64,000 nucleotides of DNA from Verrucomicrobiota bacterium (lineage in GTDB: Bacteria; Verrucomicrobiota; Verrucomicrobiia; Opitutales; Opitutaceae): positions 248,001-312,000 of the forward strand of contig JACRQG010000032.1 in the NCBI GenBank assembly GCA_016222805.1. The letters are read 5' to 3'. The position numbers and the translations under genes were made by a program. How positions within the stretch are numbered: position 1 is the stretch's first letter; each line of letters starts with the position of its first letter. The notes below the pieces were generated by a model, which saw only the letters and a program-made list of their open reading frames with translations, had not been told where the DNA came from and did not search any database. Below are positions 952-59,588 of the stretch, one piece after another.

Positions 952-1839
952 TCACACCGCCAGGTGGCCCAGGGCCAGCAGGCCGTAAAAGGTGTACTCG
1001 GAATCGACGAAGTCGTCGGCCCAGTGCCCGTGAAACCCGCCCGTGGCGTCCCAGAGGGAGTCGACGAAATCGAGCGTCCGTTCCTTCAGCGATGCCGGCA
1101 GCGGACGATCGAGGGCCGAGAGCGCGTGCAGTGCCGTGGCGGTGGACAACAGGTCAGGCATCGGAGCGCCCGGCACGGCGAGAAAGCCACCCTGCGGGTG
1201 AGCCTGGGCGAGAATCCAGTCCCCGATGGCGTCGCGCACCGGCAGACCGAGATGGCGGATGAGGATCGCGGCGCCCGCGGTGGCGTTGAGGGCGCCGAAC
1301 TTCGCCCCGGGCAGATTGCTCCAGGCTCCGTCCGCCGCCTGCAGGCGACTTAAGGCCTGGATCAGCCGCAACGGCTTGGCGGGCAGCCGGCCGAGATCCT
1401 CGTAGGCCCCGAGGGCGACGAAGGCGCCGTAGGCCGTTCCATGGGCGAGGGAGGCATTGCCTTCGTAGCCGCCGTCCGGCTTGCGGAAGGTCTCGATCCG
1501 CGCGAGGAGCGCATCGGCGCATCCGGCCGGCATCCGTTCGCGACCGACGATGCACCAGCACCGGGCGAGGGCGGAGGCGTGAACAAAATCCAGCGTCGCA
1601 CCATTGCCGAACGTGCGCAGGTAGGCCTCGACGCGATCGAGCGGCGGTGCCACGTCGAGCACCTGCAGCGCGGCGAGGTTGAAGATCGTGTAGTAGAGAT
1701 CCGGGCGGCCGGCGCGATCGCAGCCACCACCCTCCGGAGACATCTGCCGCTGCAGGTAGGCCCGGACGAGATCGGAGGACTCGCCCAGCAGGCGCGGGGC
1801 GAGCCGGGCGACCTGGAGCAGTTGCAGGCGGAGACTCAA
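952..1839 (-). CDS. Terpene-cyclase/prenyltransferase-fold protein (squalene-cyclase-type repeats)
   Basis: A 295-residue cytoplasmic protein made of (alpha/alpha)-barrel repeats of the prenyltransferase/squalene-oxidase class. Repeat cores visible are FRKPDGGYEGN, LQAADGAWSN, AHPQGGFLAV and WDATGGFHGH. No DxDD class II acid motif is seen and the length is about half that of squalene-hopene cyclase, so it resembles single-barrel proteins of the protein-prenyltransferase beta-subunit type; its reaction is unknown. It starts with TTG overlapping the stop of the polyprenyl synthase gene (TTGA), which implies translational coupling and a shared isoprenoid substrate. It is the last gene of the minus-strand block. 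Confidence 0.7.
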   Translation of the reverse strand: MSLRLQLLQVARLAPRLLGESSDLVRAYLQRQMSPEGGGCDRAGRPDLYYTIFNLAALQVLDVAPPLDRVEAYLRTFGNGATLDFVHASALARCWCIVGRERMPAGCADALLARIETFRKPDGGYEGNASLAHGTAYGAFVALGAYEDLGRLPAKPLRLIQALSRLQAADGAWSNLPGAKFGALNATAGAAILIRHLGLPVRDAIGDWILAQAHPQGGFLAVPGAPMPDLLSTATALHALSALDRPLPASLKERTLDFVDSLWDATGGFHGHWADDFVDSEYTFYGLLALGHLAV

Positions 1840-3602
1840 GCCGAGGCGGCCTCGGACAGCACCGGCACGCGGGCGCGGTTAATCTTTTCCTGCTCCTTGC
1901 ACCAACCCTTGATCTCGACGTCGTTGAAAATCTTGCCGAGCACGCGGCGGAGCAGGCCCTTGAGGTTGTGGTTCTCGAGGTCGTGCAGGGACCGGATCGC
2001 CTCTTCCTTGAACGTCCCCAGCAGCACCTCCGCCCGGTCCGTGGCGCCCACCTCCGCGTACAGGGCCTCGATCGCCGCCGGCGTCAGTCCCTCCGGCCAG
2101 GTGCGCCGCCAGAGTGCGGCCAACTGCTCCTTCTGGGCTCCCTTCGCCTTTTCATGGGCGACCGCCAGCAGCAGGCTGGGCCGCAGGCCGGCGATGTCGT
2201 TGGTCTCGCCAGAGAGGCCGAGATCGCTCAGGTCGTCGCGAATCTGATACGCCACGCCCAGCGCCTCGCTGTACTTGCCGAGCACGGCGGACACCTCGTC
2301 GTGCCGCTCGATCCCGGCGAAGAGCGCGCCGACGCGCAGGGCCACTTCGAAAGCCGGAGCGGTCTTGCGGCGGAAGATGTCCAGCACCTCGGTCGAGCGC
2401 AGTGGCCCGGGCTGCCGGGCCCAGCAGAGTTCCGCTCCCTGGCCGCGACAGAGTTGGCGCTGCCCCTCGGCCGCGACCTGGAGCAGGCGCACGCGCTGCT
2501 CCGCGGAAATGCGGCAGGCCGCGAGCAGGCGGTATCCCTCGCCGATGAGCAGGTCGCCGACATTGAGGGCGACGGGCACGCCATGGGACTCGTGCAGGGT
2601 CTTTTCCCCGTAACGAAGGGAGTCGTTGTCCTCGATGTCGTCGTGGATCAGCGAGGCCTTGTGGAAGCACTCCACGGCGATGGCGGCCTTGCGCAGATCG
2701 TCGGGCAGCGGCCCGCCGGCGTCACCGCGCAGGGCCTGGTAGGCGGCGACGGCGAGAAACGGCCGCCAGCGCTTGCCGGCGCGGGCCAGCCATTCGCGGG
2801 CGAGGCGTTCGGTCTCGCCCTCGGCGGTGCCCATGGTCAGCTCGAGGGAGGCCGGGGTGAACCAGAGGTCGACCTCCTCGTGCAGCGCGCCGAGATCGAG
2901 CCGGCGCGTGCGGTCCTGGCTGGAGAGGTGGATGTACTCCCACACCCAGTCGAGGTCGACGGTGGTGTCGATGCAGTCGTCCTGGAGCAGCGGAATCGCC
3001 ACGCCCGGAATCGCCGCGGCCTCCATGTAGGGGAAAGCCTGCTCCAGCACGCTGAGGCAGCTCACGCCCACGATGGCGTCGATCTTGCCGGTCTGGATGA
3101 TCGACATGACCACGGCGCTGCCTTCGGCCACCAACACCGCGTAACCCAGCTTTTCGGCTTCGGCGGTGAGATCCTGGATGGTGCAAAGGCCGCATTGCTT
3201 GCACAGCAGGCCGAATTCGTCGAACGGCGCCGGGCACTTGCTCTCGACGCGCATGCACTTGGGCAGGAGCAGCAGCCGGCGCTCGTACGGCACCGCGGCG
3301 AGCGATTCGCGCCACATCTCGTTGCTGAGCAGGACGCCAAGGTAGTCGCGATAGACGGGATCGCAGCCAAGCAGCTGCACCACGCGATCGGCGTGCTCCT
3401 TGAGCTCCGCCATGGGCAGCGGCGGCACCGGGTTGAACTCGGCCACGTAATTGCGCACCGCATGCAGGATGCGCGTGCGCTCGAACGGGGCGGGCGGGAT
3501 GTTGGCCTTGGGGGCGCGGAATCGCTGCTGCACCGCGTGGCGCGGCACGATCATGGGGGTGGTGAGGTCGGCGGGTTTCGACGCAGTGGGGGCGGCGTTC
3601 AT
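1836..3602 (-). CDS. Fusion: DUF116-like Cys-rich domain + polyprenyl diphosphate synthase
   Basis: 588 residues in two parts. Residues ~45-240 resemble DUF116: conserved cysteines at 116, 123, 134, 137, 140 (LLCKQCGLC) and 182 (VSCLS) could hold an Fe-S cluster. Residues ~255-570 are an isoprenyl diphosphate synthase with both Asp-rich motifs, DDIED at 321-325 and DDLSD at 456-460, and a KRWRPFL substrate-binding segment. The second half should condense IPP with an allylic diphosphate; chain length cannot be read reliably. DUF116 proteins often neighbour lipoate and radical SAM genes, and both kinds of neighbour occur here, so the fusion ties prenyl-chain synthesis to this Fe-S/lipoyl module. 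The ATG at 3602 is the natural start. Confidence 0.85.
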   Translation of the reverse strand: MNAAPTASKPADLTTPMIVPRHAVQQRFRAPKANIPPAPFERTRILHAVRNYVAEFNPVPPLPMAELKEHADRVVQLLGCDPVYRDYLGVLLSNEMWRESLAAVPYERRLLLLPKCMRVESKCPAPFDEFGLLCKQCGLCTIQDLTAEAEKLGYAVLVAEGSAVVMSIIQTGKIDAIVGVSCLSVLEQAFPYMEAAAIPGVAIPLLQDDCIDTTVDLDWVWEYIHLSSQDRTRRLDLGALHEEVDLWFTPASLELTMGTAEGETERLAREWLARAGKRWRPFLAVAAYQALRGDAGGPLPDDLRKAAIAVECFHKASLIHDDIEDNDSLRYGEKTLHESHGVPVALNVGDLLIGEGYRLLAACRISAEQRVRLLQVAAEGQRQLCRGQGAELCWARQPGPLRSTEVLDIFRRKTAPAFEVALRVGALFAGIERHDEVSAVLGKYSEALGVAYQIRDDLSDLGLSGETNDIAGLRPSLLLAVAHEKAKGAQKEQLAALWRRTWPEGLTPAAIEALYAEVGATDRAEVLLGTFKEEAIRSLHDLENHNLKGLLRRVLGKIFNDVEIKGWCKEQEKINRARVPVLSEAASA

Positions 3603-3746
3603 GATCGGGGAAAGTTGGCCAGTTTCAGGTATGGCGCGCGACAGTTTCTTTTCGGGGAGTGGCGAACCGGAAAGGGTGGGGACGCGAGGCAGCGCGGGGC
3701 GGGGTCGCCCCGCCGACAGCGGTCGGACGCGGTGGGAGTGTCCTTC
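3603..3746. repeat. Intergenic gap with REP-like palindrome
   Basis: The 144-bp gap between the radical SAM gene and the fusion gene contains one GC-rich palindrome at about 3693-3718 (gcggggcggggtcgccccgc), the same family as those at 15857, 25335, 25401, 28576 and 30195. It probably separates the two genes by attenuation or simply marks an insertion in the transcription unit. No promoter is obvious. Confidence 0.55.
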
Positions 3747-5042
3747 TCAATGGCATCGGGCGTGATCGGCGGCGGCGGAAGCCGCGGCCGTCGGCGGGCG
3801 TTCCAGGGAGTCGCGGAGCTGGCGGGCCTTGCCGGCGGCATCGTGGGCGACGTTCCGGTAGGCCCCGAAGTCGTGAAACCAGTATTTCTTCGCGATCCGG
3901 TACATCCAGTGTTTCTCCGGCACCTCCTCGCCGGGCAGCCACTGGCTGAACCGCGGCGTGATGGCATCGAGTTCCGCCATCGCCGTGCCGCGGACCGTGG
4001 TGTCGCGGGCGCCGTGCTTGCGCACGATCTCCTTTACCAGGTCGGGCCGCTCCAGGACGACACAACCGCGGGTGTGCCGGGCGGTGATTTCGCGAAAGTC
4101 CTTCAGGAAGGCGCTCTGGCGCATCGTCTCGTAGATCCCGCGCGGATCGTGGATGTCCTCGACCGCAAACTGCAGGATCGGACATGGCTCGATGTCGCCG
4201 CGCGGGCTGATGTGATGGCTGACCCCGGTTGCCATCGGGCAGAGGGCCTGGCCCTGATGATCGTAATAGGCGTCGACGATGGCGATGGGCAGGCGGGCGC
4301 GGGCCTCGGTCACGAAGCGCCGGATGCGCACGAGCTGCTCGGGAGTGCGCGCGAGGTCGAAGTTGGGCTTGGGGCCGACCGTGCGGTAACCGTGGTACCA
4401 CGCGTAGTGCACGCCCCGACGGATCAGCTCGCGCAGCCACTCCTCGGTGAGCAATTCGTCGATGTTGGTGCGGCAGAGGCTGGTCGCGACTCCGGTGAGC
4501 AGGCCGGCGCGCACGCAGTTATCCAGGCCGCGCAGCGTGCGGGCGTAGACATCCTTGTTGCCCCGGCGCTGGTCGCTGGTGATTTCGCGGCCCTCGATCG
4601 AAATGAGCGGGGTGGCGTTGCCCAGCCGGCGCAGGCGTTCGGCGATTTTCTCCGTGATCGGCTGGCCGTTGGTGAAGATCTGGAAGTAGCAGTCGGGATG
4701 CGCCTCGAGCAGGTCGAAGAGCTGCGGGTGCAGGAAGGGTTCGCCGCCAAGGATGCCGAAGAAGACATTGCCGTGGCGCTTGGCGTCGGCGACCAGGCGA
4801 TTGAGGGCGGAGAGATCCACCGCATCCTTCGCCTCGACGTCGACCCAACAGCCCTGGCAGCGGAGGTTGCAGGTGTTGATGATCGAGAGATGGAGAAAGG
4901 GAGGGAAGTACTCCCCGCGCTTCAGGCGGCGCTTGAACTTCTCGACCGAGAGCATGCCCTTGAAGCCGAAGTTCCAGGCGAACTTCCAGAGGCACTTCGG
5001 GTCCGCGCCGCGGATCGAGCGGTAGACGAGGGTGGGCAGCAT
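3747..5042 (-). CDS. Radical SAM enzyme with C-terminal SPASM-like region
   Basis: 431 residues. The CxxxCxxC motif is at C58, C62, C65 (TCNLRCQGC) at the start of the TIM-barrel, followed by GGEPFLHP, the usual second motif. Towards the C-terminus, CPMATGVSHHISPRGDIEPCP resembles the auxiliary-cluster (SPASM/twitch) region, so a second Fe-S cluster is likely. It should cleave S-adenosylmethionine to start radical chemistry; the substrate is unknown. It lies 6 bp from the ferredoxin-type gene, which may be its electron donor, and upstream of the prenyl-synthase fusion. The N-terminal ~45 residues precede the barrel as in HpnH-type enzymes, but the neighbours do not match a hopanoid operon, so I do not call it HpnH. 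Confidence 0.85.
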   Translation of the reverse strand: MLPTLVYRSIRGADPKCLWKFAWNFGFKGMLSVEKFKRRLKRGEYFPPFLHLSIINTCNLRCQGCWVDVEAKDAVDLSALNRLVADAKRHGNVFFGILGGEPFLHPQLFDLLEAHPDCYFQIFTNGQPITEKIAERLRRLGNATPLISIEGREITSDQRRGNKDVYARTLRGLDNCVRAGLLTGVATSLCRTNIDELLTEEWLRELIRRGVHYAWYHGYRTVGPKPNFDLARTPEQLVRIRRFVTEARARLPIAIVDAYYDHQGQALCPMATGVSHHISPRGDIEPCPILQFAVEDIHDPRGIYETMRQSAFLKDFREITARHTRGCVVLERPDLVKEIVRKHGARDTTVRGTAMAELDAITPRFSQWLPGEEVPEKHWMYRIAKKYWFHDFGAYRNVAHDAAGKARQLRDSLERPPTAAASAAADHARCH

Positions 5043-5048
5043 GGCGGC

Positions 5049-5900
5049 CTATCGCTGTTGCGCGGCGAGCGCCGCCTGGGCCTTGGCCCGCGCTTCCCCG
5101 GCACGCCGGAGGATTTCCTCGGGGCTGGGCAGGCTCATCAACACCTCGGCGGGAATGTCGCCCGCCTGCGCCAGCTTGGTGAGGCATTTCTGGCGCTCCT
5201 GCAGCGCCTTGTCGGAATCGCGCTCCTTGGAAAACCGCGACTGCGCCCGCTCGCTGCGCATCCGCAACATCGAGTAGATGTCGCCACCGAGAAGGGCCGA
5301 GATGTCGACCTTCATCTTCTCGCGCTGCAGATCCTCGTCGCGCACCGCCGCCCCGTTGATCGGGCCGGCCTTGTACTTGGGAAACATGATCGCCGCCTCG
5401 GGGCACACACGCGAGCAAGCGGGACAGTTGGTTTTGCAGTTGTCGTGGCTCTGGACCTGGATCTTGCCCCCGGAGTCGGCCCCGTACACGCCGAAGAGGC
5501 AAAAGCTCAGGCACTGCATGCAGTTCGTGCAGCGGTCGTAGTCGATGACCGGAAACCACGGTTTCCAGGCACCGGGCTGGACCGCCTGGCGTTCGGTCCG
5601 GGTGGTCTCGACCACCGCGGCCACCTGTTCTCCGGAGAGCCCGGACACCTCGGCCACGCGCATGCGCTCCGGCGCCGCCGCCGACAACTGTTCGGCCGCG
5701 CCCGCGCGAAAATGGCCCAGGACCAGGGCCGGTCCGTCGTCCGCCGGGGCGGTCTGGCCGGATTCCCCCACGCGGGTGACGGCAAACCCCTGCCCCAGCA
5801 GGCGCGACAGGATCTCGAAACGCTGTCCGCCCTCGAGAGGTTGGGAATCGCGCCCTTCGTAGAGGACGACTCGCAGGTGGGTCTGATCGCGCAGCGACAT
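5049..5900 (-). CDS. Ferredoxin-type protein with two [4Fe-4S] motifs
   Basis: 283 residues from the ATG at 5900; the frame is open further upstream but that part is Arg/Pro-rich and overlaps the next gene, so the shorter start is chosen. Two cluster motifs are clear: C124-C127-C130-C134 (RCTNCMQCLSFC) and C155-C159-C162-C166 (NCKTNCPACSRVC). The first ~110 residues lack cysteine and carry no recognised motif; the last ~100 are charged and helical. It probably passes electrons to the radical SAM enzyme 6 bp downstream, or between the HdrA-like and lipoyl proteins upstream. No transmembrane segment is seen. Confidence 0.8.
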   Translation of the reverse strand: MSLRDQTHLRVVLYEGRDSQPLEGGQRFEILSRLLGQGFAVTRVGESGQTAPADDGPALVLGHFRAGAAEQLSAAAPERMRVAEVSGLSGEQVAAVVETTRTERQAVQPGAWKPWFPVIDYDRCTNCMQCLSFCLFGVYGADSGGKIQVQSHDNCKTNCPACSRVCPEAAIMFPKYKAGPINGAAVRDEDLQREKMKVDISALLGGDIYSMLRMRSERAQSRFSKERDSDKALQERQKCLTKLAQAGDIPAEVLMSLPSPEEILRRAGEARAKAQAALAAQQR

Positions 5901-5935
5901 GGTTCGAAGAAAGGGAGATGGGGTAGGCGGCCCGG

Positions 5936-6337
5936 CTACGACGAAGACGAGGGCGCGGAGGTTGCGGACGCCGGTGACTTGTCGGCGGGGAGATTGGGCT
6001 GCAGGTCGGCGGCCAGCAGGCGCTCCAGCGCCGCCGGCTCGGTGAGTTCGCGCAGGTTGACGACCTCGGTCTGGGCGGGGTCGAGGGGCGTGCCCGCAGA
6101 GGCAAAGAGCCATTTCACCGCCCGGGGATAACAGGCGGCGATCTTGACGCCGGGTTGGCGGGCAAGCCGCTGGAGCGCCGGATCGCGGCGGGCCGACATC
6201 TCGCAGAGATCGGCGACCGCCTCAAAGGAGCGGCCGGAATCACACAGGCGCCGGAGCACGCCGGCCTTCACGGCCGGATCGATGATCTGGGCGTAGGTGC
6301 AGTTGCAGTACAGGAGACCGGCCGGTTCGGGGTTCAT
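5936..6337 (-). CDS. Small Fe-S protein resembling the N-terminal domain of HdrA
   Basis: 133 residues. The segments LLYCNC near the start and KIAACYPRAVKWLF at about residue 65 resemble the N-terminal domain of heterodisulfide reductase HdrA (CxC...VVAACSPR); cysteines at 11, 13, 32, 44 and 69 could bind a cluster. The flavin-binding part of HdrA is absent, so this is a stand-alone module. Its C-terminus is low complexity (Ala/Ser/Pro). It overlaps the lipoyl-carrier gene by 4 bp (ATGA), pointing to coupled synthesis and a shared task such as electron or sulfur transfer to the lipoyl arm. The homology is by eye and moderate. Confidence 0.6.
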   Translation of the reverse strand: MNPEPAGLLYCNCTYAQIIDPAVKAGVLRRLCDSGRSFEAVADLCEMSARRDPALQRLARQPGVKIAACYPRAVKWLFASAGTPLDPAQTEVVNLRELTEPAALERLLAADLQPNLPADKSPASATSAPSSSS

Positions 6338-6813
6338 GGGCTTCCGGGGTTGTCACCCTTTTGCTGTTCCATCATCCGGTCAATCGTGGCGTTGAGGAGG
6401 TCCGTGTATTCGAGGGCCGGCATGCAGTTGCGGTCCGGTTCGCCCTCCGCCCGGTAGAGCCAGCCCGCGCCGTAGGGCGCTTCATGAATCCGGTCGAGGT
6501 TGCCGGCCAGTTCCGGGTTCCCGCCGCGAAACACCCCGTCGATGACGCAATAGATGTCACTGATCGCCTTGAAGCCCTCGATGGCGCCGAGGATGGTGCC
6601 GGGCTTGACGGGCGCACCGGGCGGTAATTCGAACGACAGGTCCACCAGATCCCCCAGCATGCGGACGGCGAACTTCGTGAACCCCACGCGCCAAAGCCCG
6701 TCCGGTTCCCGGGCCAGCCAGAAGTGCGAAGGCGAGTAGAAGGCATCGGCGGGAAGATGGGTGGCGAAGTGCGATCGCTTGAAGAAAATCGTCTGGGGCG
6801 GTGCTTCGTCCAT
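6334..6813 (-). CDS. GcvH-like lipoyl carrier protein
   Basis: 159 residues from the ATG at 6813; an in-frame ATG at 6840 would add nine. The fold pattern of glycine-cleavage H protein is clear: GFTKFAVRMLGDLVDLSFE, PVKPGTILGAIEGFKAISDIY, then GVFRGGNPEL. K82 in IEGFKA aligns with the lipoylated lysine. The N-terminal ~30 and C-terminal ~35 residues extend past the usual domain. No glycine cleavage P or T gene is nearby; instead it starts an operon with HdrA-N-like, ferredoxin and radical SAM genes. That recalls lipoate-binding proteins of sHdr sulfur-oxidation systems rather than glycine metabolism. Lipoylation is inferred. Confidence 0.85.
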   Translation of the reverse strand: MDEAPPQTIFFKRSHFATHLPADAFYSPSHFWLAREPDGLWRVGFTKFAVRMLGDLVDLSFELPPGAPVKPGTILGAIEGFKAISDIYCVIDGVFRGGNPELAGNLDRIHEAPYGAGWLYRAEGEPDRNCMPALEYTDLLNATIDRMMEQQKGDNPGSP

Positions 6814-6840
6814 GCGGGCGGGGGACTGTCCCCCATTCAT

Positions 6841-6909
6841 CACGGATGGCAAGGAGCCAGTCGCGGAATTCGTCTTGGTCCGCACCGGGAACGCCCGCAG
6901 GCTGGACGC
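6841..6909. promoter_or_regulatory. Divergent intergenic region (probable promoters)
   Basis: This 69-bp gap is the only space between the leftward lipoyl/Fe-S operon and the rightward cysteine desulfurase gene, so promoters for both should lie here or overlap the coding ends. I see no convincing -35/-10 pair and no strong Shine-Dalgarno before the GTG at 6910. Confidence 0.4.
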
Positions 6910-8040
6910 GTGACCTACCTCGACCACAACGCCAGTTCGCCCCTGCTGCCGGTGGCGCGAACCGCCTGGCTGGACGCGGTGGAGAGGTTTCCCGGCAATC
7001 CCTCGAGCCCCCACCGGGTGGGGGCCCGGGCGGAGGCGGCCTTGGAGGAGGCCCGGCAACGCCTGGCTGCGAGGCTGGGTTGCACGGCGCCCGACCTGGT
7101 CTGGACGAGTGGCGCCACGGAGGCCTGTAACACCGTGCTGCACCATGCCGCCGCGGTCGCGCCTGCGGCGGCGGAGGTCTGGGTGAGCGCCATCGAGCAC
7201 CCGGCCGTGGGCGCCAGCGCCCGGCATTATTTTGGCGGCCGAGTCCGGGAGATTCCCGTGGATCGAAGCGGAGTTGCGGACCTGGGATGGTTGAAGGAGC
7301 ACCTCCGGGATCGCCGGCCGGCGCTCGTCGCGCTGATGGCGGCGAATAACGAGACGGGCGTGCTGCAACCCTGGGCCGAGACCCGCGCCGCGTGCGCCGA
7401 GGCGGGCGTACCTTCCTTCTGCGATGCCACCCAGTGGTGCGGCCGGCAACCGATCCGGGACCTGGGGGTGGGGGGCTTTGTCGCGGGCAGCGCCCACAAG
7501 TTTGGCGGGCCGCGGGGCGTGGGCTTCCTGCTGGTGCCGGCGGGAACGGCGCTGCGGCCGCTGCTGCACGGCGGCAAGCAACTCGAAGGCCGGCGGGCCG
7601 GGACGGAAAACGTCGCCGGGGTGCTGGCGATGATGGCTGCGCTGGATTGGTGCGAGGAGCAGATTGCCGCAGGTGCCACGGCGAGCCGGGCCGGGTGGCG
7701 GGACCAGTTCGAAGCGGAGCTTGTCCGGGCCCTGCCGGGAACCGTCGTCCACGGTGCTAATGTGGACCGGCTGTGGAACACCAGCAGCCTCCGCCTGCCT
7801 GCCGCCGACTGTCGGCACCGCTGGGTGGTGAAACTCGACAAGGCGGGCTTTGCCGTTTCCACCGGATCGGCCTGCGCGAGCGGGACCGAGGCACCCTCCC
7901 CGGTATTGACCGCCATGGGCCTCACGGCGGAGGAGGCGTCCCGGGCGCTGCGCGTCAGCGCCGGTTGGAACACGATCGCGGAGGAGTGGACCGGCCTTCG
8001 GCAGGCAATGGAGCGGATCCATGCCACCGCCGCGGCCTGA
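6910..8040 (+). CDS. Cysteine desulfurase (class V aminotransferase, NifS/IscS type)
   Basis: 376 residues from a GTG start; the open frame extends to 6724 but the family N-terminus (VTYLDHNASSPL) begins here. PLP enzyme that takes sulfur from cysteine as a persulfide. Seen: the NETGVLQP segment, the PLP lysine in GSAHKFGGPRGVGFL, GRRAGTENVAGV and the active-site cysteine loop STGSACASGT. A complete, probably active enzyme. The usual isc/suf scaffold genes are absent; it is divergent from the lipoyl/radical SAM block and 20 bp before the class II cyclase, so it may supply sulfur to cluster assembly or to a product of this locus. Confidence 0.9.
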   Translation: MTYLDHNASSPLLPVARTAWLDAVERFPGNPSSPHRVGARAEAALEEARQRLAARLGCTAPDLVWTSGATEACNTVLHHAAAVAPAAAEVWVSAIEHPAVGASARHYFGGRVREIPVDRSGVADLGWLKEHLRDRRPALVALMAANNETGVLQPWAETRAACAEAGVPSFCDATQWCGRQPIRDLGVGGFVAGSAHKFGGPRGVGFLLVPAGTALRPLLHGGKQLEGRRAGTENVAGVLAMMAALDWCEEQIAAGATASRAGWRDQFEAELVRALPGTVVHGANVDRLWNTSSLRLPAADCRHRWVVKLDKAGFAVSTGSACASGTEAPSPVLTAMGLTAEEASRALRVSAGWNTIAEEWTGLRQAMERIHATAAA

Positions 8041-8060
8041 GACGTGCCGGTGGCCGCCCC

Positions 8061-9980
8061 ATGAGCCTCTTTCATCCGAGCGATCCTGCAATCGAAGGGG
8101 GTAACCTGACCCTGGACCGCCTGCAGCAGGCGCGAGACGTGGCGGTCGCCGCCCTGCTGGCGGAGCGCGCGCCCGACGGCGCGTGGGTGGGTGAGTTGTC
8201 GTCGAGTGCGTTGTCCACCGCCACCGCGGTCACCGCGCTGAGTGTAGTCGCCCGGGGCGGACCGGGAGAGGGGGAAGGGACGGGGGAGTTGATCGGCCGG
8301 GGTTTTGCCTGGCTCATCGCCCACCAGAATCCGGATGGCGGCTGGGGAGACACGGTCCGGAGCAAGAGCAACATCAGCACCACGACGCTGGTCTGGTCGG
8401 CCCTGGCTTTGGCGCCTGCCGGACAACCGGGGGTCGCCCGGGCCGTCGGTGCCGCCGAGGCGTGGCTGGAGCGGGCTGCGGGTGGGAGGCAGCCCGAGGT
8501 GCTGGTCGCGGCGATCGAACGGCGTTACGGCAAGGACCGGACCTTCTCGATCCCCATCCTGACCATGGCGGCGTTGTGCGGCCGCCTGGGTCCCGACGGC
8601 TGGAAACGCGTTCGCCAGCTCCCGTTCGAGGTGGCCGTGCTGCCGCAGCGATGGTTCGGTGCCTTGCAACTGCCGGTGGTAAGTTATGCATTGCCTGCCT
8701 TGATTGCGATGGGACAGGTCAGGCACGGACGGCAGCCGAGTCGGAATCCCCTGTCGCGGGCATTAAGAAACTGGTGCAAAGAGAAGACGTTAAGGAAACT
8801 GACCTCTCTCCAGCCTTCCAACGGGGGGTTCCTGGAAGCCACGCCCTTGACGAGCTTCGTCACCATGAGCCTGGCGGATTTGGGCCTAACCCGTCACCCC
8901 GTGGTACAAAAGGGAGTCTCTTTCCTTGTCGCCTCGGTCCGAGCTGATGGGAGTTGGCCGATCGACACCAACCTGACGACGTGGCTGACAAGTTTAACAT
9001 TGCAAGCTGGGAGCCTCAACCTCCCCGGAAAGCAAGGCATCTCCCACCCCGAGCTCCGTCGCTGGTACCTGGCGCAGCAGTATCGGGAGGAGCACCCCTA
9101 CACGCTGGCGGCGCCGGGGGGATGGGCTTGGACCAACCTTCCCGGGGGTGTGCCCGATGCCGACGACACGCCGGGGGCGTTGCTGGCGCTGCGGGAACTG
9201 CGACCGGTGGATGAGGAGAACAAGGCCGCCGCTCGGGATGGCGTGGAGTGGCTCTTGAACCTCCAAAACCGCGATGGAGGCATCCCGACCTTCTGCCGCG
9301 GGTGGGGGCGGTTGCCTTTTGACCGAAGCAGCCCCGACCTGACGGCCCATGCCATTCGAGCCTGGCTGGCCTGGCGGGGCGACCTTCCGTCTGCGTCGCT
9401 GGAAAGGGTGGATCGCGGGGTGGCGAAGGCGGTTGATTTTCTGCGCCGCACCCAGCGACCGGATGGAGCCTGGATACCGCTGTGGTTCGGCCACCAGGAC
9501 GCGCCGAACGAGGAGAACCCGGTTTACGGCACCGCCCGCGTCATCCTGGCGTTGGTTGACCTGCACCGGGGAGGCGCCGGTTCAGGAGCCCTGTTGAGTT
9601 CGGCCACACGGTGGCTGGCAAATCATCAGCACCCGGATGGCGGCTGGGGTTCTGCTCCGGAAGGACCTGCCTCCTCCGAGGAAACAGCCGTGGCGGTCGA
9701 GGCTCTGGCCGCAGCCTGGACGGCCGGCGCGGTGGATCCCTCCTCTCTTCCCACGGTCCGTGCGGCTCTTCACCGCGGCGCGGGCTGGCTCCTCCACGCC
9801 GTGGAGTCAGGAAAGTGGAGGGAGCCTGCGCCCATCGGTTTCTACTTTGCCAAGCTCTGGTACTTCGAGCGGCTGTACCCGATGATCTTCGTGACCGCCG
9901 CGCTGAACCGCCTGCTGGACGCCGCGTCGACGGACCCCGCCCTCCCGGCGCCGGCGGCGAAACCTGGCGCCAACGACTGA
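8061..9980 (+). CDS. Squalene-hopene-cyclase-like class II terpene cyclase
   Basis: 639 residues, normal for squalene-hopene cyclase. The catalytic acid motif DADDT is at residues 366-370, and QW-type repeats occur along the protein (QNPDGGWGD, VRADGSWPI, QNRDGGIPTF, QRPDGAWIPLW, HPDGGWGS). It should start carbocation cyclisation of a linear isoprenoid by protonation at a membrane face. No squalene synthase (hpnC/D/E) lies here, so the substrate may be the product of the neighbouring polyprenyl synthase rather than squalene. It starts at ATG 8061, 20 bp after the cysteine desulfurase. The stretch around 8690-9010 is more A+T-rich than its flanks. Confidence 0.85.
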   Translation: MSLFHPSDPAIEGGNLTLDRLQQARDVAVAALLAERAPDGAWVGELSSSALSTATAVTALSVVARGGPGEGEGTGELIGRGFAWLIAHQNPDGGWGDTVRSKSNISTTTLVWSALALAPAGQPGVARAVGAAEAWLERAAGGRQPEVLVAAIERRYGKDRTFSIPILTMAALCGRLGPDGWKRVRQLPFEVAVLPQRWFGALQLPVVSYALPALIAMGQVRHGRQPSRNPLSRALRNWCKEKTLRKLTSLQPSNGGFLEATPLTSFVTMSLADLGLTRHPVVQKGVSFLVASVRADGSWPIDTNLTTWLTSLTLQAGSLNLPGKQGISHPELRRWYLAQQYREEHPYTLAAPGGWAWTNLPGGVPDADDTPGALLALRELRPVDEENKAAARDGVEWLLNLQNRDGGIPTFCRGWGRLPFDRSSPDLTAHAIRAWLAWRGDLPSASLERVDRGVAKAVDFLRRTQRPDGAWIPLWFGHQDAPNEENPVYGTARVILALVDLHRGGAGSGALLSSATRWLANHQHPDGGWGSAPEGPASSEETAVAVEALAAAWTAGAVDPSSLPTVRAALHRGAGWLLHAVESGKWREPAPIGFYFAKLWYFERLYPMIFVTAALNRLLDAASTDPALPAPAAKPGAND

Positions 9981-10004: not shown

Positions 10005-11150
10005 TCAGGCCGGCAAGCCGTCCAACCGATGCGTAGGGGTCGGCTTGCCGGGCCGAAAATGTTCCAGATGGTCCAGGGTGGCCCGCAGGCCTGGAAACGA
10101 TCCCGCCGCCGCAGTGAGGCCTTCTCGCACGGCGGTGGCCAGCACTTCGGGCGCTGCCTCGGCGCGAAGGTTCAGGATCAACTGCCCGCTCCGGACCGGC
10201 TGCTCGAGGTGGTACGAAAGCTCCGGCACGAAGTCGTTGCGCACGAGGTTCACGGCGGCGATCTCCCCCGCCAGGCTCTCGTCGGGGCTGAGCGTCATCT
10301 TGAGGTGTGCCACCTCCGCCTCTGCCGTCCGCAAGCGTTGCTGCACCTCGGTGGCCACCTGCCGCAAGAAGTCATCGGCGGAGAAGGCTGTCGCCGCGCT
10401 TACCTGTACGGTGGCGTTCAGCCACCCCAGCAACGCCTCTCCCTCGGCATAGGTCTGATAGTCGATGTCCATCGCGATCCGCGCCACCTGTTCGTGGCTG
10501 GTCAGGCGCTGGAACCACGCCTCCAGGTTGGTTCCCTCCCGCGCGGACACGGCCAGCACTTCCTTGCCCGGGAACTCCCGGGCCAGCACCTGACGCAGTG
10601 CGGCCTGCCGGCGTTCGTCCACCAGGTCGGACTTGCTGATGACGACCAAGTCCGCCTCTTCGATCTGCTTCCGGTAAATGTACAGGACCTTGGGGGAGAA
10701 GTTGCCGCCCGGCTCCACCCCCAGCACGCGCAACGCCCGCACCGGGTCGAGCAGCACACTCACCGGCGCCACGGTGAACTGGTCGCCATAGAGCCGCCGC
10801 AGTGGGTAGGTGACGGTCGCGGCCAGGTCCGTGCAACTGCCCACGGGCTCCGCCACAAACACCTCGGGCCGGGTCTCACTCGTGAGCTTCTGCGCCGCGT
10901 CGACGAGCGAATTGAAGCGGCAGCAGAAACACCCGCCGGGGATCTCCTCCGTCGCGAACCCCTGCGACCGCAGCATCGCGGTATCGACGAGGTTGCGGCC
11001 TTGATCGTTGGTGATGAGTCCGACGCGCAGGCCCTGTGCCGCCAGGTGCCGGGCCAGCCGGCCGACCGCGGTCGTCTTGCCTGCGCCCAGGAAGCCGCCG
11101 ATCATGATGTACCGTGCCTTGGCACCCGGGTTGGCGGGAGTCGCGCTCAT
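10005..11150 (-). CDS. CobW/P47K-family G3E GTPase (metal chaperone type)
   Basis: 381 residues. Walker A is GGFLGAGKTT (18-27), the metal-binding CxCC motif is GGCFCC (C74, C76, C77), and the guanine-recognition element is SKSD, a variant of NKxD. The C-terminal ~150 residues do not look like the standard CobW C-terminal domain. Such GTPases insert or deliver zinc, cobalt, nickel or iron to client proteins in the cytoplasm. It converges on the class II cyclase with only 24 bp between stops, and follows the propeller gene by 16 bp, so the two probably share a transcript. The client is unknown. Confidence 0.85.
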   Translation of the reverse strand: MSATPANPGAKARYIMIGGFLGAGKTTAVGRLARHLAAQGLRVGLITNDQGRNLVDTAMLRSQGFATEEIPGGCFCCRFNSLVDAAQKLTSETRPEVFVAEPVGSCTDLAATVTYPLRRLYGDQFTVAPVSVLLDPVRALRVLGVEPGGNFSPKVLYIYRKQIEEADLVVISKSDLVDERRQAALRQVLAREFPGKEVLAVSAREGTNLEAWFQRLTSHEQVARIAMDIDYQTYAEGEALLGWLNATVQVSAATAFSADDFLRQVATEVQQRLRTAEAEVAHLKMTLSPDESLAGEIAAVNLVRNDFVPELSYHLEQPVRSGQLILNLRAEAAPEVLATAVREGLTAAAGSFPGLRATLDHLEHFRPGKPTPTHRLDGLPA

Positions 11151-11166: not shown

Positions 11167-12510
11167 TCAACGCCCGGCCACCGCGATCAGTTTTCCCCGC
11201 GTGCGGAAGAACAGCGTCCCGTCCGTGATCGCCGGGGTGGCGAGGCAGGTTTCGCCCAGCGGATTCGTCGCCACCACCGAGAAGGCCGCGCCCACGGGCA
11301 CGACGACCACATTGCCGAGTTCGCTGGTGATGAACAGGTGGCGGCCGTCCGAGACCGGCGAAGCGGTGTAGCCTTCGCTCACCTTGGACACGCGTTCACT
11401 GTACCGCACCTCCCCCGTGCGCGCGTCGAAACACGACAGTACCCCGAGGTCGTTGCAGGCGTAAACGTGTTCCCCGATCACGATCGGGGTCTGCATATAG
11501 TTCCCCTTCTTGTCGTGGTTCCAGACGATCGCCGCGCTGGCCGGATTGGCCGGCCCGGACTCCGCCGGCGTGATGTCGCCGGACGCATCCGCCCGGATGG
11601 CGCGAATCGGCCGCAGCCGTCCGTGCGCGCTCGTGAAGTAGATCAGGCCGTGGGCAAAAACCGGCGTCGGCACGGGAATATCGCCGCCGCCATCCAGTTT
11701 CCAAAGCTCCCGGCCGGTCGCGAAGTCATAGCCGCCGGAGTGGTGCCAGCCGTTGACGGCGATTTGCGTGCGCCCGCCCTGCACAACCACCGCGGGAGTG
11801 CCCCAGGTCGGCACGTCCTTTCGCGCCGTCCGCCAGAGCTCGCGGCCGTCCGCGAGATCGAACACCGCGAGGAAGGAGTCCTTTTGCACATCGCATTGCA
11901 CGACCACCTTGCCGTCGTGAATCACCGGGGAACTGGCGAAACCCCACTGGGCCGTCGGCACCTGGAAGTACCCGGAGTCCATCGGGCCGAGGTCCTTTTT
12001 CCACAGGAGCTTTCCCTCGCGATCGAAACAGAACAGGCCTTCCGAGCCGAAGAGGGCGACGATGCGCTTCCCGTCGGTGGCCGGGGTGGAATTGCAGTGC
12101 GTGGCCTTGGTGTGGCGCTTGACCCGCGGCACCGCTTCGAGCGCGAGCACGTTCCAGAGAATGCGCCCGGTTGCCCGGTCCAGCGCGAGCAACCGCCATT
12201 GCACCGGTCCGCTTTCCGGCACCGAGTCGATGTTGCCGTAGAGCCCCACCTTCAAGTCGGCCTTGCCGGCCTCCACCGCGGTCGCGACGTAGATCCGATC
12301 GTCCCAGAGGATCGGCGAGGCATGCGCGAGGCCGGGAATCGGCGCTTGCCAGCGGATGTTCGTGCCGGTTTCCGCGTTCCAGGTCGTGGGCAGGGACACT
12401 GACGAGTCGAGGCCGCTGGCGGAGGGTCCTCGGTATTGCGGCCAGGGCGCGGCCGCCAGCGCCGTCGCCGCCAGCATCCAAAACGCCGTCAGGTGGGAAG
12501 GGGTGGGCAT
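11167..12510 (-). CDS. Secreted PQQ-like beta-propeller protein
   Basis: 447 residues from ATG 12510, chosen because a signal peptide follows at once (hydrophobic FWMLAATALAAA, cleavage near AAAPW). The mature part begins WPQYRGPSASGL, common in Planctomycetota/Verrucomicrobiota propellers. Tryptophan-docking style repeats are visible: ATGRILWN, REGKLLWKKD, ADGRELWRT, ATGRELWKLD, RTGEVRYS. It is probably exported to the periplasm; quinone binding is not proven, since many such proteins are scaffolds like BamB. It is followed by the CobW-type GTPase. Confidence 0.85.
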   Translation of the reverse strand: MPTPSHLTAFWMLAATALAAAPWPQYRGPSASGLDSSVSLPTTWNAETGTNIRWQAPIPGLAHASPILWDDRIYVATAVEAGKADLKVGLYGNIDSVPESGPVQWRLLALDRATGRILWNVLALEAVPRVKRHTKATHCNSTPATDGKRIVALFGSEGLFCFDREGKLLWKKDLGPMDSGYFQVPTAQWGFASSPVIHDGKVVVQCDVQKDSFLAVFDLADGRELWRTARKDVPTWGTPAVVVQGGRTQIAVNGWHHSGGYDFATGRELWKLDGGGDIPVPTPVFAHGLIYFTSAHGRLRPIRAIRADASGDITPAESGPANPASAAIVWNHDKKGNYMQTPIVIGEHVYACNDLGVLSCFDARTGEVRYSERVSKVSEGYTASPVSDGRHLFITSELGNVVVVPVGAAFSVVATNPLGETCLATPAITDGTLFFRTRGKLIAVAGR

Positions 12511-12560
12511 GCGCGGATGCAATCCGCCTTCCGGGCCGGCGCAAGCCGGGTCGCGTCTCC

Positions 12561-15500
12561 CTAATCGCCGCCCAGGACGGTGCTCGGGCGGAGATCCCGC
12601 AGCGACCAACGGAAAACCAACCAGCCGCTGGCGAGGTTGAGCAGCAGGATTCCCGCGAGCAGTCCGCCCACCAGGGCGAGCGTCGGAGCCGCGGGCAGGG
12701 TGCCGAGACCGGGCCAGACGGCGACGATCGCGGCGCCGAGACCAATGCCGATGCCCCAGAGGACCAGCCGGCCAAACTCGGCGACCACCAGGCGGGCCAG
12801 GACCGGCGGCGGCAGGCCAATCGCGGCCATCACCGCAAACTCACCGCGTCGCTCCCGCAGGTTGCGCGCGATCACGATCGCGAGACCGAGGCTGCCGAGT
12901 ACGACCCCGAGGGCGCCGAGGACGTTGAAGATCGCGATGTAGGTGTTTTCGATCTGGTGGAAGGCGGTGAGCACCTCGCGGGTGGTGTCGACCCGACCGC
13001 CGACGTCGCCGACCGCCGCGGCCAGACGCGGCTGGAGGGCCGCGATCCCCCCGGGGCGCGCGGCATCGACGAGGAAAATCGAGTAGCCGGGATGGGAAGG
13101 ATACCGCGCCAGGAATGCCGCCTCGTCGACGAGTAGGTAGCCCTGAAACACGGAATCCTTCAGGGTGCCGGCAATCCGCACCGGAAAGGTGCGGCCGTTT
13201 TCATCGGTGTAGCTGAGGAGGTCGCCGACCTTGCGTTTCAGCGCCCAGAGGAGCGTGGTCTCGTCGATCAGCGCCGGCAGCGCCGGGTCAGCCGGAGTCG
13301 GCCGGAGCAGGTTCCAGCCGTTGGCGCCGGCCGGTCCCGTCCCGGTGATGGGAAATGCTCCGCGGGCAGCGAGGACGGCCGCGTCGACGGCGAGGAGCCG
13401 GGGCTGCGCCGTGGTGTTGAGGTTGAAACAGTTGATGTTGTCGCCCGCCCCGGCGCGGAGCGGCACGATGAGGCCGAGTTCCGACGCGTGGGATTCAAAG
13501 ATCTCGAAACGTCCCACCAGGCGGTCGCGGGCGGGGTTCTGGGCGGCCGTGGTTTCGACAAAGAAGGCAAACCCTCCGGTGCCGCTGGTGCGGTCGAGCC
13601 AGTCGCTGCCCACCTGTTTGCGGAAGGAAGCGACGGACAGCACCATGAAGACGGCGGTGGCGATGAGTCCGATGACCGTCAGGCTGCGGGAGCGCCGGGT
13701 CTTCAGGTTGAGCACTCCCAGGCGCGAGGGCTCGAACGGAGCGGCCGGATCCAGTCCGGTCGAACCGGCCAGCCAGGTGCGGCACGTCGCCAGGCCGGCC
13801 ACGAGCAACGCGAAACCCGCGAGGAAAAACGCTCCCTGTGGCGGCAGGCCGCGCCCGGCGACCGCGAGGGCGATCGCGGCGACGAGACCGGCGACGATCG
13901 CGATCCGCACCGACGTGCGCCGCAGGCGCGGAGTGGCGGCAGACTCCTCTGCGTGGGCGGCGAGTCGGATCGAAAGCGCCCGTCGTGCCTGGCGGCGCAG
14001 GGAGAGCCAGAGCACCAGGAGCGAGAGGATCAGGAAGCCGCCGGCGCCGCCGGCCAGGCTCGCCGGCGTGGCGGCGAAATCGAACCGCGCCGCCCCCTGG
14101 CCCGCCCAGATGGTCTCGAGGAACCGCAGGATCCCGCGGGTGTAGAGCGCCGCCAGGGGCACGCCCGCCGCGCTGCCGAGCGTGAGCAGCACCACCGCCT
14201 CGGCGAGGCGCCAGCGCCGAAGACGTTCCGGAGGGATGCCGACGGCGGCGAGGAGGGCGTCTTCCCGATTGCGCTGCAGGAGGCAGAACTGAAAGAGCAT
14301 CGCGACGAGACCGAGGGCCGCGAGGATGAGAAAGAAGCTCATCCCGAGGAAGAGCCCGGCGAAGTCCACCGCCGGGGCGGCGGAGTCGGCGGCGGCACCG
14401 CGAAAATCGCGGACCAGGAGTTGGTTCAGCTCGGGCCTGAGGGCGCCCAGGAGGGTCTGCGTGATCTCGGCCTCGTTTTCCCGCGGCGCGGCGATTCGCC
14501 GGGCGGTGCGGGCACCCCAGCGGCTGGACCACAACTCCTGTCCGGCTTCAGCGGGCAGGAATGCCTTCGGCGCCCCGCGGTGTTCGTCCCAGTAGCGTTC
14601 GTCCTGGTCCCGGATGCGCTTCAGGTCGAGCGGCAGGCCGGGGTTCCAGTCGCGCGGGCTTCCGGTGTTGGTGATGCCGGGAAACTCCGGCATCCAGGCC
14701 CGATCCGCGGCCAGTCTCTGCAGAGGGATGATGGCGCGGACGCGAAACGAAGCCGCCTGCTCCTGCAGGGCGCTGCCCGCCGAGGATTGAAAATAGGTGA
14801 GCCGCACCTCATCGCCCACGGCGGCCTGCAGATCGCGCGCGAGCCAGTCGTTCAGGACGATGTCCCGCGGCCCGAGGTCGGCGGGGAGGAAGGGAGCGGC
14901 CGCGTGCGTGGTGGCCGTGACGATGGAGTACGGCGTGGTGAGCGTGCGCACGCGGAATTCGTTCACGAGGTAGGAGGTGACCGGCTGCGCGGCGGGGAGC
15001 GCGCGCACGATCGCGGCGTCGATCTCGGGGTCGAGGAAGATGCGGTCGGCTCCGACCTCAAACGCTCCGGCCGCCTCAATCCAGCGCAGCGAAAGCCCAT
15101 AGTCGGCCAGGCGGACCGCCCGCCGCAGGGCGGCCGCGAGGGTCTCGCGCGGAGCCTCGGTTTCGAGCAGCATCAGGTTGGCCCGGCCGGGCTGATCCAG
15201 CGCCTCCTGCAGGCGGGCGATGGGCAGGAAGACGGAGGCCGGCGGCACCTGCGTCGCTTCCAGGCTGAAGCGTCCGAGGGAGTGGTCGTCGATCACGGCA
15301 GCGACGGTGCCGCGCAGCGTCTGCAGGGTGCTTTCGCCGCCCGCGATCGGGGCGTTGCCGGTGAGGATTCCGGGTTTCTGAAACCGGAGGATGAGGGTGT
15401 CGCCAGTCGCCAGGTTGAGCTGGCGGGCGAGGGCGTGATTGATCGCGACGGCCGGGCCGGCAGGGGTCAACGGCGCGGCGGGGGGACGCGGGGCGAAGGC

Positions 15501-15848
15501 CCAGAAGGCGTCGGTGACGCCGAGGAGTTGGACGTGGTTTACGCGGGCCTGGGTGGAGGCGTGGGCGGCCGTGCCGCGCGTGAGCAGCACGGGCGCGGTC
15601 CGGGCCGGAACGACGCCAGCCAGATCCGTGGCGAGGGCGGCACGAAAGAACCGGTCCCCGGAGGTCAGCACCTGCGTGGCGCGACCCGTGCGCTGCGCGG
15701 CGATTTGCTGCAAGGTGGCCCGGACCGAATCACCGGAGAACAGTGCGCCGAGCAGCACGGTGGCGCCGAGCACCGAGCCAGCCAGCACGCCAAGGTAGGC
15801 GTACCGGTGATGGAGGAGGCTGCTCAGCAGGTAGCGCGTGGCGGTCAT
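12561..15848 (-). CDS. MacB/FtsX-family ABC transporter permease (large)
   Basis: 1095 residues. The first membrane helix (YLGVLAGSVLGATVLLGALFSG) is followed by a long extracytoplasmic domain (~residues 50-470), then helices around 485-505, 535-555 and 585-620, a second block of helices after ~650, another extracytoplasmic domain (~720-950), and final helices to the end. This is the two-FtsX-domain layout of a MacB/LolC-type exporter or lipoprotein-release permease. A REP-like palindrome lies at 15857-15883 in the 78-bp gap to the ATPase gene upstream. It probably exports the product of this cluster or a lipoprotein. Confidence 0.85.
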   Translation of the reverse strand: MTATRYLLSSLLHHRYAYLGVLAGSVLGATVLLGALFSGDSVRATLQQIAAQRTGRATQVLTSGDRFFRAALATDLAGVVPARTAPVLLTRGTAAHASTQARVNHVQLLGVTDAFWAFAPRPPAAPLTPAGPAVAINHALARQLNLATGDTLILRFQKPGILTGNAPIAGGESTLQTLRGTVAAVIDDHSLGRFSLEATQVPPASVFLPIARLQEALDQPGRANLMLLETEAPRETLAAALRRAVRLADYGLSLRWIEAAGAFEVGADRIFLDPEIDAAIVRALPAAQPVTSYLVNEFRVRTLTTPYSIVTATTHAAAPFLPADLGPRDIVLNDWLARDLQAAVGDEVRLTYFQSSAGSALQEQAASFRVRAIIPLQRLAADRAWMPEFPGITNTGSPRDWNPGLPLDLKRIRDQDERYWDEHRGAPKAFLPAEAGQELWSSRWGARTARRIAAPRENEAEITQTLLGALRPELNQLLVRDFRGAAADSAAPAVDFAGLFLGMSFFLILAALGLVAMLFQFCLLQRNREDALLAAVGIPPERLRRWRLAEAVVLLTLGSAAGVPLAALYTRGILRFLETIWAGQGAARFDFAATPASLAGGAGGFLILSLLVLWLSLRRQARRALSIRLAAHAEESAATPRLRRTSVRIAIVAGLVAAIALAVAGRGLPPQGAFFLAGFALLVAGLATCRTWLAGSTGLDPAAPFEPSRLGVLNLKTRRSRSLTVIGLIATAVFMVLSVASFRKQVGSDWLDRTSGTGGFAFFVETTAAQNPARDRLVGRFEIFESHASELGLIVPLRAGAGDNINCFNLNTTAQPRLLAVDAAVLAARGAFPITGTGPAGANGWNLLRPTPADPALPALIDETTLLWALKRKVGDLLSYTDENGRTFPVRIAGTLKDSVFQGYLLVDEAAFLARYPSHPGYSIFLVDAARPGGIAALQPRLAAAVGDVGGRVDTTREVLTAFHQIENTYIAIFNVLGALGVVLGSLGLAIVIARNLRERRGEFAVMAAIGLPPPVLARLVVAEFGRLVLWGIGIGLGAAIVAVWPGLGTLPAAPTLALVGGLLAGILLLNLASGWLVFRWSLRDLRPSTVLGGD

Positions 15849-15856
15849 CGCGAGAC

Positions 15857-15883
15857 GCGGGGCGGGGTCGCCCCGCCCACAGG
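15857..15883. repeat. REP-like palindrome between ABC ATPase and permease genes
   Basis: GC-rich palindrome (gcggggcggggtcgccccgc) followed by 'ccacagg', one of the dispersed GTAGGCGGGGCGACC family members. It lies within the ABC operon, where it could form a hairpin in the mRNA and set the relative amounts of the two subunits. Confidence 0.6.
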
Positions 15884-15926
15884 GCGAGGGAAGCTTAGCC
15901 GGAGGAGAACGCCGGACATGGCGGCT

Positions 15927-16598
15927 TCAGTCCACCAGCCGGCCATCGGCGAGGCGGTAGGTCCGGTGCAGGCGCTGGGCGAGCCCGGGGTTGTGCGTCA
16001 CGACCACGAGGGCGACGCGGGCCAGCGCGTTGGTTTGGAGAAACAGCTCGGCGATGCGCTCCCCGGTGGAGGGGTCGAGCGAGCCGGTCGGCTCATCCGC
16101 GAGGATGATCCGGGGTTGGTTGATCAACGAACGGGCGATGGCGGTGCGGAGCTGTTCACCGCCCGAGAGCTGGTACGGGCGGTGGTCGCGGCGATCCTGA
16201 AGACCGACCTGTTCCAGCAGGGCCTCGGCGCGGGCGCGGGTGGTGCGGGAGTCCTCGTCCCAGCCGCCGGCCAGCCGGGGCACGAGGACGTTCTCGAGCA
16301 CGGTGCACTGCGGCAGCAGGTAATGCAGCTGGAAGACGAAACCGATCGTGCGGTTGCGAAAGCGGGCGGCGGCGGGGGCGTCGAGGGCCGAGAGTTCCTC
16401 TCCGGCGACACGAATCGAGCCGGAGGAGGGACGGTCGAGGGCGCCGAGCAGGTTGAGCAGGGTGGTCTTGCCGGAGCCGGAGGGACCGACGACGGCGATC
16501 GACTCCCCGGCGCCGACACGCAGATCGAGATCTTTCAGCACCGAGACCGGGCCGGCAGCGGTGTCGTAGGACTTGGAGACGCGGGTGGCTTCGATCAT
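15927..16598 (-). CDS. ABC transporter ATPase (MacB/LolD type)
   Basis: 223 residues, a typical single nucleotide-binding domain. Walker A GPSGSGKTT at 38-46, Q-loop in GFVFQLHYLLPQ, signature LSGGEQLRTAIAR, Walker B IILADEPTGSLD and the H-loop VVTHN. The LHYLLPQ segment is typical of LolD/MacB ATPases that pair with FtsX-domain permeases, matching the gene downstream. Its ATG overlaps the stop of the adenylating-enzyme gene upstream (ATGA). Confidence 0.95.
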   Translation of the reverse strand: MIEATRVSKSYDTAAGPVSVLKDLDLRVGAGESIAVVGPSGSGKTTLLNLLGALDRPSSGSIRVAGEELSALDAPAAARFRNRTIGFVFQLHYLLPQCTVLENVLVPRLAGGWDEDSRTTRARAEALLEQVGLQDRRDHRPYQLSGGEQLRTAIARSLINQPRIILADEPTGSLDPSTGERIAELFLQTNALARVALVVVTHNPGLAQRLHRTYRLADGRLVD

Positions 16599-17857: not shown

Positions 17858-17907
17858 AAGTGTCGAGGGCCCGGGTTTGGGGCGCAAGCGCGCGGGGTCG
17901 GATCTCC

Positions 17908-52782: not shown

Positions 52783-52862
52783 CTGCTCCTTCCAGCATCC
52801 GGAAGCACCGCCATGGGGAAATGCGCCAGGCAAAGTGGTCGAACACGGAAGCTAGATCCGCC

Positions 52863-55833: not shown

Positions 55834-55835
55834 TC

Positions 55836-56716: not shown

Positions 56717-56725
56717 GCTGCCCCT

Positions 56726-58902: not shown

Positions 58903-58904
58903 AA

Positions 58905-59546: not shown

Positions 59547-59588
59547 GGGAAGCGGTGTTGGAATGGAGATTCACATGGGAGGATCAAG

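Follow-up and report, generated by a model that had tools for sequence, protein, structure and literature searches.

A conserved Verrucomicrobiota gene block that joins a DUF116-polyprenyl synthase fusion and a class II cyclase with radical SAM and Fe-S proteins

A 64,000-nucleotide stretch of contig JACRQG010000032.1 (positions 248,001–312,000; "the window" below) from the Opitutaceae assembly GCA_016222805.1 (Verrucomicrobiota bacterium; 7.9 Mb, 95.6% complete) carries near its left end a block of nine genes. They encode a fusion of DUF116 with a trans-polyprenyl diphosphate synthase, a radical S-adenosylmethionine (SAM) enzyme, a single alpha-alpha toroid protein, a class II prenyl cyclase of the squalene-hopene cyclase (SHC) type, a dicluster ferredoxin-like protein, a small HdrA-N-like protein of iron-sulfur (Fe-S) type, a GcvH-like lipoyl-carrier protein, a NifS-like cysteine desulfurase and a CobW/G3E-type GTPase. 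The block is conserved as a unit in related loci, the first four genes co-occur across genomes of the phylum, the catalytic motifs are intact, and no squalene synthase was found in the window genome. We read the block, at about even confidence, as a squalene-independent polyprenoid pathway: the fusion would make or transfer a chain, the cyclase would close rings and an Fe-S chain would drive a radical SAM step. No description or name for this gene combination was found in the literature searched, and that an unnamed module co-occurs almost perfectly in at least a dozen families suggests a lipid or cofactor not yet known.

Related loci were gathered by a pattern scan of a genome collection with the fusion protein, and the best 80 of 319 relatives were used; by name 73 are Verrucomicrobiota, four are only "bacterium" and three are Pseudomonadota, the last falling inside the group in the fusion tree. 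Many of the loci lie on short contigs, and profiles match for the radical SAM enzyme in 45, the toroid in 42, the ferredoxin in 39, the HdrA-N-like protein in 38, the lipoyl protein and the GTPase in 25 each, the cyclase in 20 and the desulfurase in 19. All nine genes are present in 13 of the 80, and gene order is kept in related loci, in agreement with the proposal of an initial annotation of this DNA that they belong together as one conserved system. The same annotation had held that homologues found apart would count against it, and apart they often are: among 47 well-flanked loci (at least 7.5 kb before and at least 4 kb after the fusion), 11 have all nine genes and 17 have the fusion alone. 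Yet the genome-wide co-occurrence persists, so the dispersed genes do not refute a single pathway but rather argue for one; 16 of these 17 fusion-only loci were searched (L076 was left out), and their genomes carry the radical SAM gene elsewhere in 16 of 16 cases and the cyclase gene in 15 of 16. Kept gene order in relatives, together with four genes that co-occur genome-wide, thus makes the block more than a chance assembly.

The co-occurrence was counted in 144 genomes of the phylum with completeness of at least 90%, searched with five of the proteins at match levels of E 1e-35 (radical SAM), 1e-6 (toroid) and 1e-25 (cyclase) and at least 44% identity for lipoyl orthologs. A fusion was called only when both domains matched (E 4.5e-83 or lower; a match at 4e-26, the next in rank, covers the synthase half only). 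The fusion is present in 21 genomes, and the radical SAM gene in 19, every one of them fusion-positive. The toroid also occurs in 21, of which 20 are shared with the fusion (the match in G112 is weak and far from the fusion) and one, G086, lacks it; the cyclase occurs in 22, namely all 21 fusion genomes and, as a partial match, G139. Fisher P values, which are not corrected for shared ancestry, are 9e-22 to 2e-24 for pairs with the fusion and 7e-19 to 2e-24 among all four genes. The positive genomes span 12 to 15 families. A further 30 genomes, reached through named loci and for the most part carrying an isolated fusion, are of unknown completeness; the radical SAM gene is present in 26 of them and the cyclase gene in 25.

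The fusion gene (1836–3602, minus strand; 588 aa) matches Pfam DUF116 with 125.9 bits and polyprenyl_synt with 146 bits, and is one of four polyprenyl synthases in the window genome. DUF116 cysteines C116, C123, C134, C140, C182 and C210 are found in 102 of 102 sequences and C137 in 101; the first Asp-rich motif (D321, D322, D325), which marks a trans-isoprenyl diphosphate synthase, is likewise invariant, as are A316 and S317 before it, and the second motif is kept at D456 (101/102), D457 (102/102) and D460 (100/102). Since both Asp-rich motifs are kept, the protein probably either synthesises a polyprenyl diphosphate chain or transfers one; small residues ahead of the first motif, such as A316 and S317, would favour long products. 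A DUF116-polyprenyl synthetase fusion was noted in 2015, in a single sentence, for Pirellula staleyi Psta_0175, and DUF116 was predicted there to have a flavodoxin-like fold and an electron-transfer role (PMC5898192). The domain fusion is the same as ours, but the parts of that account that deal with it give no pathway or partner genes.

The cyclase gene (8061–9980, plus strand; 639 aa) matches SQHop_cyclase_C with 131.9 bits. The acids of its DADD motif (D366, D368, D369) and H430 are present in 58 of 58 sequences, so that both the DXDD motif and the activating histidine of class II cyclases are kept. Residues 228–621 align with 233–627 of a solved squalene-hopene cyclase, with DADDT opposite DVDDT and DLTAH opposite DVTAH. 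The window genome has no second SHC-type protein, the sole matches being two pieces of the window gene itself. Nor does it have any match to SQS_PSY, the squalene/phytoene synthase family, which is also absent from 17 of the 21 fusion genomes and present in the other four (G066, G007, G020, G053). Squalene is therefore not the general substrate, though it is possible where SQS_PSY is present or an unknown synthase exists. Because no squalene synthase was found in the window genome, the polyprenyl product would be the substrate on which the cyclase closes rings by protonation.

The radical SAM gene (3747–5042, minus strand; 431 aa) matches Pfam Radical_SAM with 53.9 bits and has a CX3CX2C motif, whose C62 and C65 are found in 94 of 94 sequences and C58 in 92. 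Three C-terminal cysteines (C268, C287, C327) are also invariant in the 94 and probably bind an auxiliary cluster. No NCBIfam cut-off was reached among the matches listed (25 of 52 families); assignment to HpnH was rejected, as the score is 33.5 bits against a cut-off of 225.05 and other radical SAM families score higher. The neighboring ferredoxin-like protein (5049–5900, minus strand; Pfam Fer4 families) has two Cys quartets behind an N-terminal domain of no assigned family, with all eight cysteines present in 61 of 61 sequences. The HdrA-N-like protein (5936–6337, minus strand; 133 aa) has no Pfam match at E 0.1; its tentative likeness to the HdrA N-terminal domain (residues 1 to about 150) draws on a sub-threshold NCBIfam match (E 0.03, HdrA positions 5–92), middling structural matches and a Cys pattern (C11, C13, C45, C69) that is invariant in 48 sequences.

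A set of 25 distant loci taken from fusion genomes (L089–L113) bears on how these two proteins work. The ferredoxin profile matches in 17 of the 25, and in 13 of these 17 the HdrA-N-like profile matches the same open frame (8 of the 13 are also found by plain tblastn with the window HdrA-N-like protein); no HdrA-N-like match was seen in L106, L108, L109 and L111. Two profiles in one frame point to one electron-transfer unit. The HdrA-N-like protein and the ferredoxin would supply the radical SAM enzyme, and perhaps also the DUF116 cysteines, with low-potential electrons. The enzyme would then carry out a modification of the chain that needs no oxygen. We infer the product, the radical chemistry, the order of steps and the part of each Fe-S protein.

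The toroid gene (952–1839, minus strand; 295 aa) belongs to the Prenyltrans family (47.7 bits; the fold of terpene cyclases and protein prenyltransferase beta chains) and has conserved D229-LLST and D279-x-EYT motifs. Its start codon is TTG, and the same MSLRLQ opens the consensus of 37 relatives. The initial annotation called it a single-barrel cyclase; the fold is as described, but the DXDD motif of class II cyclases is absent from both the window sequence and the conserved positions, so that the name holds as a statement of fold only. Profile comparison relates it to class II cyclases (best E 8e-09), to the beta chains of protein prenyltransferases and to complement C4, and the protein probably binds or presents the prenyl chain.

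Several observations weigh against the reading as a squalene-independent polyprenoid pathway. Two fusion genomes among the 144 (G112, G124) have no radical SAM ortholog and one (G101) has no detected toroid, and the co-occurrence figures stand without an unrelated control gene. Among the 30 further genomes, of unknown completeness, the cyclase was missing in five and the radical SAM gene in four (those behind L016, L023, L025 and L066). Two of the five without a class II cyclase are those of the close relatives L069 and L077, where the fusion adjoins the radical SAM gene, so cyclisation is perhaps not obligatory; this arrangement is perhaps a shortened form of the pathway. Most genomes behind named loci (10 of 12) have SQS_PSY, and squalene is therefore excluded only where the synthase is absent. 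SQS_PSY is also lacking in all 14 fusion-negative genomes of the window's own family, which makes its absence a trait of the family and not of the module. Finally, the RRG that follows the first Asp-rich motif in three aligned solved synthases is RYG in the fusion, with Tyr (residue 331) for the second Arg in 99 of 102 sequences. This Arg helps to bind isopentenyl diphosphate (IPP), and its replacement leaves the usual chain elongation in doubt. It is conceivable, if improbable, that the block represents a new class of lipid pathway, with Fe-S and radical SAM chemistry directly on the polyprenyl chain, a RYG synthase that joins the chain to an acceptor other than IPP, and an undescribed cyclised membrane lipid or redox carrier as the product in many Verrucomicrobiota and possibly in Planctomycetes.

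The remaining three proteins are more narrowly distributed. The lipoyl protein (6334–6813, minus strand; 159 aa) matches Pfam GCV_H with 62.8 bits and has a predicted lipoyl-lysine, K82, in its GcvH-like domain in 32 of 32 sequences, but it falls below all four NCBIfam cut-offs matched, including curated GcvH scores (72.3 against 117 and 64.4 against 115.85 bits). A separate canonical GcvH (142.5 bits) is encoded in the same genome, which disposes of the caveat that this protein might be the organism's sole GcvH serving glycine cleavage. Of the 21 fusion genomes only five have a lipoyl ortholog, and the protein therefore looks like an add-on; weaker matches in 57 further genomes (down to E 1e-12) look like ordinary GcvH. 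The desulfurase (6910–8040, plus strand; 376 aa; Aminotran_5, 166 bits, and NCBIfam) has Cys322 and Lys197 in 25 of 25 sequences, and the GTPase (10005–11150, minus strand; cobW, 84.6 bits) has a CxCC motif (Cys74, 76, 77) in 30 of 30. Within the distant set the lipoyl profile matches only in L089, L091, L093 and L095 and the GTPase profile only in L089, L090 and L092 (none in L096–L113), and desulfurase profiles match in none of L089–L113; neither the GTPase nor the desulfurase was searched genome-wide. These three proteins would be a lineage-specific addition, probably for cofactor, metal or thiol supply.

The initial annotation placed eight of these genes correctly in position and strand, with a leftward run from the lipoyl gene to the toroid gene and the desulfurase and cyclase genes divergent from it on the plus strand. 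Its two 4-bp overlaps are also present: at 1836–1839 the TGA stop of the fusion gene overlaps the TTG start of the toroid gene, and at 6334–6337 the TGA stop of the lipoyl gene overlaps the ATG start of the HdrA-N-like gene. The other gaps in the run are 6 and 35 bp, and 144 bp separate the radical SAM and fusion genes. The annotation missed the ninth gene, the CobW-like GTPase gene just outside its coordinates, which belongs to the block; in L005, L006, L008, L010, L011, L013 and others this gene lies between the lipoyl and HdrA-N-like genes.

That annotation also proposed a cyclised isoprenoid modified by radical or sulfur chemistry on a lipoyl-type carrier. About half of this survives: the catalytic residues of the class II cyclase are kept, and the simplest account is a cyclised isoprenoid that undergoes a radical step, but lipoyl or sulfur chemistry finds no support as its core. 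Such a core, with sulfur that comes from the desulfurase, travels on the lipoyl protein and ends up in a terpenoid, would account for the invariant lipoyl lysine (32/32), for the desulfurase gene that diverges from the lipoyl gene in related loci and for the lipoyl gene adjoining the radical SAM gene where the fusion is elsewhere (L091, L093, L095). We think it doubtful given the rarity of the lipoyl ortholog among fusion genomes and the lack of any HdrB/HdrC-type protein in the block. A hopanoid-type pathway, with squalene as the substrate of the cyclase and an HpnH-like role for the radical SAM enzyme, could draw on the intact SHC-type motifs, the weak HpnH profile match and the SQS_PSY genes of four of the 21 fusion genomes and of 10 of the 12 behind named loci, but the lack of SQS_PSY in the window genome and in 17 of 21 makes a hopanoid role unlikely, and with a radical SAM score so far below the HpnH cut-off and exceeded by other families we consider it very improbable.

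We rate equally low the idea that the toroid attaches the chain to a block protein in the manner of a protein prenyltransferase beta chain. Its profile does match farnesyl- and geranylgeranyltransferase beta chains (best E 7e-07), but class II cyclases match somewhat better, the Zn-ligand positions seem by eye not to be kept, and by eye no window protein has a CaaX-like end. An isoprenoid redox cofactor, that is, a membrane-soluble electron carrier (quinone-like or other) for a periplasmic or membrane electron-transfer complex, is a more serious alternative, although still an unlikely one. In 9 of the 21 fusion genomes, from five families, the region beyond the cyclase has at least two of a PQQ_2-type propeller, a small protein, a multi-cluster ferredoxin and a membrane Fe-S protein (L089, L090, L096, L097, L103, L106, L109, L110, L111; on the other strand in L089 and L090); Pfam was run for the L103 gene set and one L096 propeller, and the membrane Fe-S protein is "NapH-like" by eye. 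In L079, L082, L083 and L084 the fusion follows what look by eye like succinate dehydrogenase-like subunit genes. However, no aromatic or quinone gene was recognised in the block, and the window locus has the PQQ_2 propeller only, as the small protein, the ferredoxin and the membrane Fe-S protein are unmatched in the window by tblastn.

The squalene-independent polyprenoid pathway that we prefer is nearest in logic to the C35 sesquarterpenoid route of Bacillus subtilis (HepST, YtpB, SqhC), in which a long-chain trans-prenyl diphosphate synthase is coupled to an SHC homologue that cyclises a product of heptaprenyl diphosphate rather than squalene; the portions of that work that set out the route describe no DUF116 fusion and no radical SAM, HdrA-N-like, ferredoxin, toroid or lipoyl genes (PMC8144471). 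The sHdr-LbpA system of sulfur oxidation pairs a GcvH-like lipoyl protein with Hdr-like proteins (PMC10332631), and the block likewise has a GcvH-like protein beside an Hdr-like one. Unlike sHdr-LbpA, the block has only an HdrA N-terminal-like fragment and a lipoyl protein confined to 5 of 21 fusion genomes; no HdrB/HdrC-type protein was seen among the ten Pfam-scanned locus proteins and no sLpl(AB) lipoate ligase or LipS1/LipS2 was recognised in the locus, the rest of the genome not having been searched for either. Hopanoid biosynthesis with HpnH, which makes adenosylhopane, also has one polycyclic isoprenoid handled by both an SHC-type cyclase and a radical SAM enzyme, but here squalene synthase was not found and the radical SAM score falls well short of the HpnH cut-off. 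The block would, if our reading is right, extend terpenoid biosynthesis by a branch built on Fe-S and radical SAM chemistry. It is also a warning against taking SHC-type genes of this phylum as hopanoid markers where a squalene synthase is lacking.

Chthoniobacter flavus Ellin428, which is cultured, has eight of the nine genes and makes the question open to experiment. Its fusion, toroid and cyclase genes lie together in L056, its desulfurase, lipoyl, HdrA-N-like, ferredoxin and radical SAM genes lie in a separate stretch (L176), and the GTPase gene was not found in either. SQS_PSY-family genes also occur in this genome. The fusion was found in none of the 14 same-family and none of the 9 other same-order genomes searched. 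In a quick tree of 98 fusion sequences the window group falls among rows named Pedosphaera and Limisphaerales (supports 90 to 99, by one test); this placement hints at transfer of the fusion into the window's family, with unreliable row names, long outer branches and an unsafe root.

Some neighboring genes deserve mention. A PQQ_2 beta-propeller gene (11167–12609, minus strand; Pfam 96.8 bits for 11167–12516) lies upstream of the GTPase gene, and its membership in the block is uncertain; a second one is at 28617–30431, and such propellers recur beside the block in distant genomes. At 12561–16598 a long permease-like open reading frame (ORF) and an ATP-binding cassette ORF have, by eye, the look of an FtsX-type transporter pair. 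Near the block in several relatives are an AMP-binding gene and an aldehyde-dehydrogenase-family gene (Pfam was run on one example of each), which resemble an acyl reductase pair (L008:18836–21508, L010:16756–20532, also L006, L012, L013 and L031), and the window has an AMP-binding gene at 16595–17887. Farther away, positions 47307–62487 hold a surface polysaccharide cluster with a flippase, a UDP-GlcNAc 2-epimerase, a glycosyltransferase, a hexapeptide transferase and a DegT aminotransferase.

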